Shown here: positions 206 to 34,402 of the stretch, piece by piece
Numbering within the stretch: position 1 is the stretch's first letter
Layout: the number at the start of each line of letters is the position of its first letter
Assembly: GCA_947503785.1 (NCBI GenBank)
Contig: CANNFB010000014.1
Location: 1 to 64,000, forward strand
DNA length: 64,000 nucleotides
DNA from: an uncultured Campylobacterales bacterium
GTDB taxonomy: Bacteria > Campylobacterota > Campylobacteria > Campylobacterales > Arcobacteraceae
Direction: 5' to 3'
Program-made: the position numbers and the translations under genes
The notes under the pieces: generated by a model
The model's database searches: none
What the model was told of the DNA's origin: nothing
Seen by the model: only the letters and a program-made list of their open reading frames with translations

Positions 206-1045
206 ATGGATGATAAACTATTACTTGAAAATGAAAACTATAAAAAAATAGAAAAAGTAATACGATACATCGATGAAAACTTCAAAGAACAACCGTCAAT
301 AGACACCATCTCAGAATACATCGGAATGAGTAAATTCCATTTAATTAGAGTATTCAAGGAGTACGTAGGTGTTACCCCCATCCAATTTTTACAATCTGTT
401 ACTTTAAATTATGCCAAGGAGCACTTGAAAGAATCTAAAAGTATTCTTGATTCTTCACTTGATATGGGATTATCAAGTTCTAGTCGACTTCATGATTTAT
501 TTGTAAATATTATTGGCGTTACACCAAATGAATATAAACAATCAGGGCAAAATGTTGAAATCACTTATGGTTATGGATTCACTCCTTTTGGAGAAGCTTT
601 AATAGCCTTTACCAAAAGAGGTGTTTCTTATCTTGGTTTTGTAGACAACAATAAAGCTTCAGTTTTCTCAAGATTTAAAGAAATCTGGGAAAAAGCTACA
701 TTTATTGAAGATGACAAGAAAGCACAAGATTATTTAGATAATATTTTTATTGAAAAAAAGAAATTTGATTTATATGTAAAAGGTACAAACTTTCAAATAA
801 ATATTTGGAAAGCTTTATTAAACATACCAAATGGAACAATCACAACTTATCAAGATATAGCAAAAAGTATAAATAAACCCAAAGCCGTACGAGCCGTTGC
901 CTCTGCAATTGGTTCAAATCATATTGGTTATTTAGTACCTTGTCATAGAGTTTTAGCAAAATCAGGTGCGATGAGTGGTTACCGTTGGGGAATTGAGAGA
1001 AAGAAGATATTAATAGCATACGAAGCTATAAAAAACAAAGCTTAA
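206..1045 (+). CDS. AraC-type regulator fused to O6-methylguanine-DNA methyltransferase (Ada-like)
   Basis: The protein has 279 residues. Residues about 15-113 form an AraC-type double helix-turn-helix, and residues about 195-277 a DNA alkyltransferase domain with the acceptor motif PCHRV (Cys246). By family, it would transfer methyl groups from O6-methylguanine to its own cysteine and regulate genes through the HTH. The N-terminal zinc domain of classical Ada, whose cysteine senses methylphosphotriesters, is missing because the HTH starts almost at residue 1. ATG 206 is preceded by GGAAATA. The domain calls are firm, but the regulon and the way the shortened protein is activated are unknown. 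A stand-alone alkyltransferase is encoded at 11281. Confidence 0.9.
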   Translation: MDDKLLLENENYKKIEKVIRYIDENFKEQPSIDTISEYIGMSKFHLIRVFKEYVGVTPIQFLQSVTLNYAKEHLKESKSILDSSLDMGLSSSSRLHDLFVNIIGVTPNEYKQSGQNVEITYGYGFTPFGEALIAFTKRGVSYLGFVDNNKASVFSRFKEIWEKATFIEDDKKAQDYLDNIFIEKKKFDLYVKGTNFQINIWKALLNIPNGTITTYQDIAKSINKPKAVRAVASAIGSNHIGYLVPCHRVLAKSGAMSGYRWGIERKKILIAYEAIKNKA

Positions 1046-1134
1046 AAATAAGATAGTTTACTTAGTAAAATCATATACTACAAATCACTATTTAGGTATT
1101 ATATACATAAATAAACCTTTTTGTTAGGAAATAG

Positions 1135-2582
1135 ATGCTAAATATACAATCTAATAACTTTCTTTATAACTATAAAATATTAATAATAATTACTATGTTA
1201 CTTTTTGTAGGATTTTTTGCTACATCATTTTTTTCTTATAAAATTGCTACAGATCTTGCAAAAAATGAATTAAAATATAAATCCTTGCCACTAAGTAGTG
1301 ATAATGTATATTCAGAAATACAAAGAGATATACTTAAACCAAATCTTGTTTCTTCACTTATGGCACAAGATACATTTATGGTAAATTGGATGTTATCTGG
1401 GGAACAAAATATTGATCAAATTACTACCTATCTTTCTACAATAAAAAACAAATATAATACTTCTAGTAGTTTTTTAGTATCAGATAAAACAAAAAATTAC
1501 TACTACCCTAAAGGTATTTTAAAAAAATATCATCAAATGAAAAAAGAGATATTTGGTTCTATAGGGTTAAAAATATAGTTGATGAATATGAAAGTAATAT
1601 TGATGTTGATTTAGCAGCTAACGATTCTATTACTATTTTTACAAATTATAAAGTAAAAGATTTTGAGGGAAATTTTTTAGGTGCAACAGGAGTTGGATTA
1701 AGAACTTCACATGTAAGTGATTTATTAAAAACTTATAAAGAAAAATACAATCACGAAATCTATCTAGTAAATAAAGATAATAAAATATTAATTAGTTCAA
1801 AAAATATTCAAGGCGTAGAAAGTAGTCATATTTTTGTGAATAAAATAATACATAACTTCAATAAAAAAGAACTCTCCACTCATGAGTATTATAGAGATAA
1901 TGATAAATATGTACTAAATATTAGATTTATAGATGAATTAAATTTATACTTATGCGTAGAAGCTAAAGAGGGTAATTTTACAAAAGAATTAGAAAAAACT
2001 TTTTATATAAATATTGTAATTTTCTCTGTCATAATATTAATCATCATGACTTTTATAATACTATTTATAAAACGTCAACAACAGATATTAAAAAATATTG
2101 CTAAAACTGACAAATTGACTTCTTTAGATAATAGAAATGATTTTGATTTAATCTTTGAAGAGCTTTTTAATTCACAGAGAAAAGATGATAAAGAGTTAAC
2201 TATTTTAATCTTTGACATAGATGATTTTAAGAAAATAAATGATAAATATGGTCATTTAATAGGGGATGAAGTCCTTATTGAAATAGCTAATATTTTCAAA
2301 AATACATTTAGAAGTTCTGATACTCTAGTACGATGGGGAGGAGATGAATTTGTTGCCTTATTACCAAAGATTAAAAAAGAAAAAGCTTATCAATTAACAA
2401 ATGAATTAAGTAAAAATATAAACAAAAGTAAGATACTTCTTAGTTTAACTACACAGCAAATTACAATTAGTGCTGGTTTATGCTCAAAAGAAAATGAACA
2501 ATCTAAAGAAGAACTATTTTCAAAAGCTGATGAAAACTTATATAAAGCAAAACAAAAAGGTAAAAATACAATAGTCTATTAA
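1135..2582 (+). pseudogene. Membrane diguanylate cyclase (Cache-like sensor + GGDEF) interrupted by a frameshift
   Basis: Two reading frames, 1135-1578 and one continuing to 2582, form one protein of about 482 residues if a base is added in the 7-A run at 1521-1527. The restored order is a membrane helix (about 14-38), a periplasmic Cache-like ligand domain, a second helix (DNA about 2000-2070) and a GGDEF domain. The active-site motif GGDEF is intact (near residue 402), and RSSD five residues before it matches the product-inhibition I-site. An intact protein would make cyclic di-GMP in response to an external signal. The frame break could be a true mutation, phase variation in the A-tract, or a sequencing error. 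ATG 1135 follows TTAGGAAATAG. Confidence 0.8.
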
Positions 2583-2639: not shown

Positions 2640-3983
2640 ATGTCTTATACTAAAAAAAGATATTTAGTCTATATCTTTATTACTGTCTTTACCTTTTCAT
2701 TACCGTTTATTACCATTGACAATAATCACATTTTACTTTTATCATTTGATAAATTACAATTTCATTTTTTTGGATTTGTTTATAATATGAATGAGCTTTA
2801 TATTATGCCATTTCTATTAATGTTTTTATTTATTGGTATTTTTGCCATGACTACACTTTTTGGTAGAGTTTGGTGTGGATGGGGATGTCCTCAAACTATC
2901 TTTAGAGTTATTTATCGAGATTTAATTGAAAGTACTATTTTAGATATGAGAAGAATTAAAAACAAACAAAAGGATATTGATTATTCTAAGAAATCTAATC
3001 ATCTTAAAAAGTATATTTCTATTTTTCTTTGGCTTATAATTACAATAGTGATTTCTACAAACTTTATGTGGTATTTCGTTCCTCCTGAAGATTTTTTTCT
3101 TTATATGCAAAGCCCAAATGATCATATGTTTATGATAATATTTATACTATCTATTGCAATGTTTTTAGTATACGATATTGTTTTTATGAAAGAAAACTTT
3201 TGTGTTTATATTTGTCCATATTCAAGAATACAATCTGTTTTATATGATGATGATACAAAACAAATAGTTTATGATACTTCAAGAGGTGGAGATGTTTATG
3301 TAAATCGTGAAAAATCTATTTTCAAAATGAAAGAGTGGAGTTCAAATGAAGAGTGTACTACTTGTGAAGCATGTGTAAAAATATGCCCTGCGAATATTGA
3401 TATTAGAAAAGGTTTACAAGTTGAATGTATTGACTGTTTAGAATGTGCTGATGCATGTAGTATTGTAATGGGGAAACTTGGTAAAAAGTCTTTAATAAAC
3501 TGGGGAAGTACAAATACGGTTATACACAAAAGAATCACTAAACTTTTTACTAAAAGAAATATGACTTATTTTCTTTCACTTATTTTATGTGTTGTTTTAG
3601 CGATTGTTTTTGCATCTAAAAAAGAGCCATTTTTACTAAATGTAAATAAAACTACAAATCTCTATAAAATAAAAGCAGAACAAAAAGTTACGAATAATTA
3701 TGTTTTAACTTTTCATAATACTCAAGATAAAGCCTATACTTTTGATATAAAATTAGAGGATAATGAAAACTTTAGAATTAAAAGATTTAAGGCTTTTAAA
3801 CTTGAAGCAAATAAGAGAGTAAAAAAAATATTTATTGTAGAGACTAAAAAGAGACTTTTTATTTCTAGTACAAAAGATACTGCATTAAAAATAAAAATCA
3901 ATTCTTTTACACTTGAAAATAAAGACATTAAACTCTCAAGAGAGTTATCCTTTGTTTATCCAAGAAGTGATTTAATCAAATGA
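2640..3983 (+). CDS. ccoG: Cytochrome c oxidase accessory protein CcoG (polyferredoxin)
   Basis: A membrane protein of 447 residues. It has membrane helices near residues 10-30, 55-75, 125-145, 163-185 and 310-328. The CGWGCP motif (Cys79, Cys83) lies in the membrane region. Two [4Fe-4S] ferredoxin cysteine clusters follow, at 239/242/245/249 and 263/266/269/273. The C-terminus is an Ig-like periplasmic domain. CcoG takes part in copper delivery to and assembly of cbb3 oxidase, by family knowledge, but no ccoNOQP genes are present here. ATG 2640 is preceded by AAAGGAG. The 3' end overlaps the convergent kinase gene by 12 bases. Confidence 0.92.
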   Translation: MSYTKKRYLVYIFITVFTFSLPFITIDNNHILLLSFDKLQFHFFGFVYNMNELYIMPFLLMFLFIGIFAMTTLFGRVWCGWGCPQTIFRVIYRDLIESTILDMRRIKNKQKDIDYSKKSNHLKKYISIFLWLIITIVISTNFMWYFVPPEDFFLYMQSPNDHMFMIIFILSIAMFLVYDIVFMKENFCVYICPYSRIQSVLYDDDTKQIVYDTSRGGDVYVNREKSIFKMKEWSSNEECTTCEACVKICPANIDIRKGLQVECIDCLECADACSIVMGKLGKKSLINWGSTNTVIHKRITKLFTKRNMTYFLSLILCVVLAIVFASKKEPFLLNVNKTTNLYKIKAEQKVTNNYVLTFHNTQDKAYTFDIKLEDNENFRIKRFKAFKLEANKRVKKIFIVETKKRLFISSTKDTALKIKINSFTLENKDIKLSRELSFVYPRSDLIK

Positions 3984-29604: not shown

Positions 29605-29648
29605 AGAGAAGCACTGAAAATACATTGGTATTTTGAGTGCTCTTCTTT
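29605..29648 (+). promoter_or_regulatory. Leader hairpin competing with the SRP RNA 5' arm
   Basis: AAAATAC (29617-29623) pairs with GTATTTT (29628-29634), and GCACT (29611-29615) with AGTGC (29636-29640). After a 2-base bulge more pairs extend to 29648. The 3' half of this hairpin is the 5' strand of the SRP RNA terminal stem, so the two folds exclude each other. It may mark a processing site or an upstream terminator. Confidence 0.5.
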
Positions 29649-29745
29649 AGACCCTTACAATTATTATCAAAGACAATGCCCCAGGATGGGAACATAGCAA
29701 GGCACCTTTTTTAGTGGTGTGTTTGGGTATCTGGAGAAGAGTACT
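29636..29745 (+). ncRNA. ffs: Signal recognition particle RNA (small bacterial type)
   Basis: The end sequences AGTGCTCTTCT (29636-29646) and AGAAGAGTACT (29735-29745) form a long terminal stem with one mismatch. Further pairs AGACCC/GGGTATCT continue inward. The apex holds CCAGG, then GGGAA, then AGCA around 29680-29699, matching the conserved internal loops and tetraloop that bind Ffh. The length of about 110 bases is normal. The RNA works with Ffh and FtsY in co-translational targeting of membrane proteins. Confidence 0.85.
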
Positions 29746-33521: not shown

Positions 33522-34402
33522 TATTGCTTATACTTACTTTTTAATTTCAAATAATTTTGATAATACATATTTAAAGGATCAAAATCTATTTTTTCAATTT
33601 TACTTAATTCTTTTACTTTCAGTATTTCATAAAGTTCATTCTTTTTTTTATTTATAAAGAATTCATCTAATATTTTTTTTAATATTTCAATATTTTTAGA
33701 TGTACTATTTTTATTAAAAAGTATTAATATATAAGGAAAAATTTGAGGACTAGTTTCTAAAATTTTTATTTTTTTCGTTATTGCAGGATTTAATTCAAAC
33801 ATAACATTATATTCATATGAAGTTATTACAGCTGCATCATACTTTGAAAAGTATGTATGTAATAATAAAGAGTTTGATTTATTATAATTTATTTTTGATA
33901 TTATATCATCTGCATTTTTTTTAGCATTTTTTAAATAAACTTCTTCTATAAATATTTTACCAAATATATTTGTATTATTAATTCCAATTTTTTTATTTTT
34001 TAAATCTAAAACTGAATTTATATTACTTTTTTTATTAACAATTAGATACATTTCTTGAAAAGGATTATTTTTGCTTTTTGTTAAGTGATGATAATCTATA
34101 GTATTAGAATCAAGTATTTTTTTATTATCTAAATACTCATAAGAAGAAAGTGATATTACATCGAGTTTATTATTAATATAATCATCAATCATTACTTGAT
34201 TATTTTTATATAAATTCACATTAATATCTTCATAAATATTTTTTACAAAATCATTAACTCATATATTTAAAGCACTTTGAGAATTTTTATACTTTGGTAC
34301 AAAATCTGTATTATTATGATACCCAATATTTATATTTTCTATTTTCTCACTAGAATACATAAATAATGACAAAAAAATAAATATTAAAAATTTTAAATAC
34401 AT
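33521..34402 (-). pseudogene. PhnD-like periplasmic binding protein gene interrupted by an in-frame TGA
   Basis: From ATG 34402 an exported protein of about 293 residues is encoded, with a signal peptide in the first 17 residues. Codon 48 (34259-34261) is TGA, which a single base change from TGG (tryptophan) would explain; the frame is otherwise open to 33521. The downstream part from GTG 34219 has the periplasmic-binding pattern of PhnD/phosphonate-type proteins (LDLKNKKIGI, SKYDAAVITSYEYN). It overlaps the kinase start. The product is probably lost or made at low level by readthrough or internal initiation. A sequencing error is possible. Confidence 0.75.

Follow-up and report, generated by a model that had tools for sequence, protein, structure and literature searches.

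Frameshifts at homopolymers in bacterial genes are said, in the title of a 2010 article by Wernegreen, to be ancient and maintained by selection. The frameshift that we describe here likewise lies in a homopolymer, but it was found in one genome only. A similar arrangement is found in tssM1 of Citrobacter rodentium, in which an interruption likewise follows a poly-A tract and the remainder of the gene is intact downstream; the tract in tssM1 has 11 A residues and both forms of the protein have been shown, whereas the tract analyzed in this study has seven (PMC4256274).

A described protein of like domain arrangement is VC2224 (receptor R6) of Vibrio cholerae, a dCache_1PU-GGDEF cyclase through which inosine, theophylline and guanosine raise cyclic di-GMP (PMC11245519). 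It combines a periplasmic dCache with a GGDEF domain in the same way as the gene studied here and carries the same YKWFN variant of the sensor motif. VC2224, however, is intact and has been shown to respond to purines, whereas our gene is split and its purine response is a prediction. A similar sensor is also found in McpH, the purine chemoreceptor of Pseudomonas putida, although McpH is a chemoreceptor and the product of our gene a cyclase. The dCache_1PU purine motif corresponds to McpH residues Y121, R129, W140, F167 and D169, with variants (PMC11245519).

One cyclase gene in two frames

The DNA analyzed, hereafter the window, is the whole stretch of 64,000 nucleotides that makes up positions 1-64000 of contig C14 in a 2.76-Mb, 54-contig draft of a Poseidonibacter-like (Arcobacteraceae) genome. 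It contains a Cache-GGDEF diguanylate cyclase gene, 1.1 kb from the contig start, with a single-base frame break at a run of seven A. Bases 1517-1528 read TTTT, seven A, T. Frame 0 extends from ATG 1135 to TAG 1576-1578, and the downstream frame opens behind TAA 1509-1511 and continues free of stops from 1512 to TAA 2580-2582, so that the two frames overlap at 1512-1578. The features of the locus are as follows.

206-1045, plus strand: upstream neighbor, an AraC-type regulator fused to O6-methylguanine-DNA methyltransferase (Ada-like; ada-ogt), also found ahead of each of the five genus orthologues
1135-1578, plus strand: upstream piece of 147 aa, with the first membrane helix (judged by eye), the front half of the periplasmic Cache sensor, 16 off-frame residues and the TAG
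1512-2582, plus strand: downstream frame of 356 codons, with the rear half of the Cache sensor, the second membrane helix (judged by eye) and the GGDEF domain
1521-1527, plus strand: seven-A run at the break; frame 0 reads TTA AAA AAA TAT, with A_AAA_AAA in phase for a -1 shift
1836-1838, plus strand: GTG, the first ATG, GTG or TTG in the downstream frame; a 248-aa product from here would be without most of the sensor
2310-2321, plus strand: RSSD, matching the inhibitory (I) site pattern, five residues before GGDEF (read from the sequence)
2337-2351, plus strand: GGDEF active-site motif (profile match and sequence)
2640-3983, plus strand: downstream neighbor, ccoG, present at this place in all five genus orthologues

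The two pieces belong to one gene split at the run, because the one-frame protein of the congener G003 (P0002, 481 aa) spans both of them end to end and in sequence: its residues 1-131 align to window 1135-1527 with 92% identity and its residues 125-481 to window 1506-2579 with 77% identity. An earlier note on this DNA had proposed exactly such a split by a single-base break at the seven-A run, and the alignment and the reading frames bear it out. The same note had described the catalytic and inhibitory sites as intact, and both were found in place, GGDEF at 2337 and RSSD at 2310. The GGDEF domain in the downstream frame scores 152 bits against a Pfam cut-off of 23.8 and carries an intact GG[D/E]EF motif (RWGGDEF at 2331-2351), and RSSD fits the inhibitory-site pattern, RxxD five residues before GGDEF. 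In this strain, however, the GGDEF domain of the gene lies off frame. Matches to GGDEF number 36 genome-wide, and no second copy of the gene was found in this genome, the best other match being 70% over 176 bases. A homopolymer of this kind is nothing unusual: the window has 145 seven-A matches (overlapping, both strands) versus 210 expected from shuffles.

Orthologues and a predicted purine sensor

Orthologues were found in five of the nine other genomes of the genus, each as one open frame of 476-491 aa; none was found in the remaining four, which comprise G002 (completeness 100) and G006, G008 and G009 (85-88). The copies in G004 and in Poseidonibacter ostreae (L031) have identical translations. 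Further inactivating changes in relatives, which the earlier note had named as an observation that would tell against its reading, were looked for, and all five genus relatives are open throughout. The order ada-ogt, dgc, ccoG is also kept in all five. Fewer than 100 bases separate ada-ogt from the cyclase in the window, in G001 and in G004. An extra gene of 423-435 aa lies between the two in G003 (L112:3022-4329), G007 (L117:4444-5715) and G005 (L115:13845-15128, given as the minus strand). Judged by eye, it encodes leucine-rich repeats and a kinase-like domain; it is absent at window 1046-1134 and is also missing at that place in G001 and G004.

We extended the comparison to 104 genomes of the family, scoring at most 15 candidates per genome and taking as homologues those with E <= 1e-60. 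By this measure, 36 family genomes contain a homologue. The genome studied here is the only one in which the gene is split between frames, and 34 of the 35 others are free of stops. In G067, the homologue of the cyclase is a distant one (L245, 37% identity), and its linker contains an in-frame TAG immediately ahead of GGDEF.

The assignment of the sensor to the Cache fold rests on a structure match to McpH, because the score against Pfam dCache_1 (PF02743) is under the gathering cut-off of 45 bits (P0001, 29.4 bits). Intact orthologues also fall below this cut-off (P0002, 26.8 bits; the P. ostreae protein, 27.8 bits). The sensor of the P. ostreae orthologue matches the McpH sensor domain structure 8bmv with an E value of 6e-16 over 169 residues, and it also matches another chemoreceptor structure, 9b9s, with an E value of 5e-12. 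With the McpH motif positions assigned by manual counting on the 8bmv alignment, the five-residue dCache_1PU motif is present as YKWFN in nine of the 29 family homologues read, the five genus orthologues among them. We conclude that the sensor is probably of the purine-binding dCache type, as predicted from these residues. The other family homologues have an acidic second residue, with YEWFN in 18 of the 29 and YDWFN in two. Neither E nor D at this place is among the dCache_1PU variants given in the excerpt of PMC11245519, and these 20 homologues may have a different ligand.

The break lies within YKWFN, and the five motif residues of this genome are distributed across two frames.

1498-1500, plus strand: Tyr codon, motif residue 1 (McpH Y121), in the upstream piece
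1522-1524, plus strand: Lys codon (frame 0), motif residue 2 (McpH R129), inside the A run
1554-1556, plus strand: Trp codon, motif residue 3 (McpH W140), in the downstream frame only
1638-1646, plus strand: Phe and Asn codons (at 1638 and 1644), motif residues 4 and 5 (McpH F167 and D169)

The upstream product would thus retain only two of the five motif residues. The concrete prediction that follows from the intact genes, namely that the Poseidonibacter orthologues are purine-responsive diguanylate cyclases, may be a more useful by-product of this work than the break. If confirmed, a purine response would provide an Arcobacteraceae cyclic di-GMP enzyme with a known signal.

The run, the downstream part and frame breaks elsewhere

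The seven-A tract is not a conserved element. The run is broken in four genus orthologues by another base that follows four A at the site, and the fifth (G001) has eight A, in frame, at the same codons. Among the 29 of 35 other family homologues in which the site was read, a run of at least seven within 18 codons around it occurs in just two, G001 and G075, the latter slightly downstream and in frame. Loss of one base directly and gain of a longer run that was then shortened are both compatible with the site. A conserved recoding site is ruled out, as the five genus orthologues are one-frame genes whose run is either broken or, in G001, eight A long and in frame. Of the hallmarks of programmed -1 frameshifting, the heptamer in phase is present, whereas the downstream structure is not: no stimulatory structure was found behind the run (z -0.28 for 1528-1607, for folds without pseudoknots). 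Nor is there a conserved site with a split frame, the relatives having one frame.

Behind the break, the gene has evolved as its intact relatives have. Compared with G003, the downstream part has a dN/dS of 0.140, and the values for G003, G004 and G007 among themselves are 0.130-0.174. On its own branch, this part has a dS of 0.54 and an omega of 0.137, within the 0.107-0.246 of the three relatives' branches, and the share of the branch spent evolving unconstrained is -0.10 to 0.085 (95% bootstrap). A random substitution in the downstream part creates a stop with a probability of 0.060, which places the 95% limit before a first stop at about 48 neutral substitutions. One of six relative-rate tests on this part was nominally significant (28 on its own branch versus 10 for L003; p 0.005, uncorrected). 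A decaying pseudogene is ruled out, as there is no extra stop or frame break past the site and constraint is like that in the relatives. The lack of decay implies that the break is very recent, that it is an error, or that the product is still made. The front of the cyclase (1135-1518) is more conserved than the rear (1530-2579), with 92% versus 78% amino acid identity to G003, and the same difference is seen among the intact relatives.

To place the break in its genomic setting, we compared 864 kb of this genome (the window and 40 further stretches) with about 1.25 Mb of G003. In the forward direction, 365 of 1066 G003 open reading frames of at least 100 aa passed (best match at least 60% identical, with 60% of the query covered), and the cyclase was the only frame-split gene in these 365 orthologue pairs (360 kb). 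In reverse, 368 of 749 open reading frames of this genome passed; one of them was frame-split in G003, and the stretch there is diverged, with a longest run of six in the 151 bases inspected. In either direction, a short frame break close to the end of a gene would escape the comparison. Runs of A or T of at least seven are common, with 516 in 371 best-hit orthologous segments of this genome (363 kb; a set slightly different from the 365 pairs), and the same 371 segments hold 76 runs of eight A and eight runs of nine A. In phase, the heptamer A_AAA_AAA was counted 226 times across the sampled orthologous segments. One split gene in 365 pairs despite 516 such runs indicates that runs are not a general source of error in the assembly and that neither the run nor the heptamer is special. 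An error-riddled assembly as the general cause is ruled out on the same count. Six in-frame stops were recorded in the forward comparison: one in the cyclase's own flank, one TGA at 34259-34261 and four near gene starts. These last four fall at positions 5-11 of the alignment (residues of about 6-39 of the query) with a possible start at most eight codons behind, and we took them to be start-site differences. The reverse comparison counted seven in-frame stops.

Explanations for the break

We favor, at a probability of roughly 60%, a recent and isolated single-base frameshift that has inactivated a conserved membrane diguanylate cyclase with a purine-type dCache. This reading follows from the intact orthologues between the same flanks, the unconserved run, the recent constraint and the lack of any other frame break in the sample of this genome. 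Under this explanation, the base change would be real in the strain, and translation would end at 1576-1578 and give a truncated membrane protein that has half of the sensor but lacks the cyclase. The strain would lose one predicted purine-responsive cyclic di-GMP input, and about 35 other GGDEF domains would stay. Speaking against a recent loss of function are the proximity of the contig start and the relative-rate test with p 0.005.

The main rival is a sequencing or assembly error, in which case the gene would be intact in the strain and the draft would have one wrong base count. An assembly error would look identical to a real lesion at this site, and the missing decay fits an error or a bypass just as well. 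Consistent with an error are the homopolymer, the closeness of the gene to a contig start (1.1 kb, in a draft of 54 contigs), the undecayed downstream part and the five intact genus orthologues. Nonetheless, we consider it doubtful, if a serious possibility, given that just one of the 365 pairs is split despite 516 runs of at least seven in the 371 segments, as expected of an assembly that is not generally poor at runs. The undecayed downstream part would also be explained if some full-length cyclase were still made by accident, either by ribosomes slipping -1 on A_AAA_AAA or by RNA polymerase adding an A, with the downstream part remaining under selection. The context TTA AAA AAA TAT puts the heptamer in phase, a -1 shift from it reaches the downstream frame, and constraint on the downstream part persists. 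Together, A_AAA_AAA and A_AAA_AAG make up 72% of insertion-sequence frameshift heptamers, and the former belongs to the efficient class in E. coli when given a strong stimulator (PMC4066793). Trace bypass is possible, since runs of three to eight bases were bypassed in laboratory drift (PMC3812077). In E. coli and Buchnera, the frequency of insertions during transcription climbs exponentially as A/T runs become longer (PMC5574713), and tssM1 of C. rodentium is rescued at its 11-A run at about 20-25% (PMC4256274). Without stimulators, however, the 64 heptamers tested in E. coli reached at most about 10 times a background of 0.055% (PMC4066793), and at our site no downstream structure was detected (z -0.28), the heptamer is in phase 226 times in the sampled segments and the run is missing in four of the five genus orthologues. 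For slippage in transcription, the E. coli polymerase requires seven T or more, and a longer run if it consists of A (PMC6260861), and, in the excerpt of PMC5574713, no frame-restoring transcription error was detected genome-wide in E. coli or Buchnera. Accidental bypass is thus unlikely, and the rescue by transcriptional slippage that the earlier note had raised is unlikely in view of the polymerase's requirement. A variant, in which the run would act as a dimmer, with low-level ribosomal slippage turning the purine-responsive input down rather than off and selection keeping the downstream part clean, appears a little less likely still.

The earlier note had also raised an on/off switch. Replication slippage at the run would then turn the cyclase on and off within the population. 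A one-base change in length would suffice, and the congener G001 has an in-frame eight-A run at the same codons. Candidates for phase variation at poly-A are said to have been reported for other species of Helicobacter (PMC2823697). In Clostridioides difficile, a cyclic di-GMP phosphodiesterase is phase-variable, by DNA inversion (PMC9286219). However, the Helicobacter canadensis search set limits of nine A, above the length of our run, and seven G, and its translational candidates were all poly-G in the excerpt of that report (PMC2823697). A phase-variable gene is marked by a long, unstable tract that is conserved or variable in length among relatives, whereas the present tract has seven A and is broken up in all but one of the five genus orthologues, with runs of at least seven in two of 29 homologues. 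The 516 long runs, including 76 of eight A and eight of nine A, also go with no other break in the 365 pairs. Phase variation is therefore very improbable, and the earlier suggestion of a switch is not supported. Finally, the break could free a sensorless and perhaps constitutive cyclase restarted at GTG 1836, whose 248-aa frame contains the entire GGDEF domain. This GTG sits 258 bases past the upstream stop, with no good ribosome-binding site by eye, and its position is occupied by Ile in four genus orthologues and by Met in the fifth, so there is no conserved start there; we find such a restart hardly credible.

If the recent loss of function that we favor is real, it is an ordinary event, the loss at the level of one strain of one among about 36 GGDEF domains. 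That genes do break singly in this genome is evident from a second lesion in the window. The TGA at 34259-34261 (minus strand) interrupts a gene for a phosphonate-type ABC substrate-binding protein at about 33524-34402; at the TGA site, Trp is encoded in the orthologue of G003 (61% identical; Pfam PF12974). Elsewhere in the window, positions 29644-29740 (plus strand) encode a Bacterial small SRP RNA, the sole Rfam match at gathering score.
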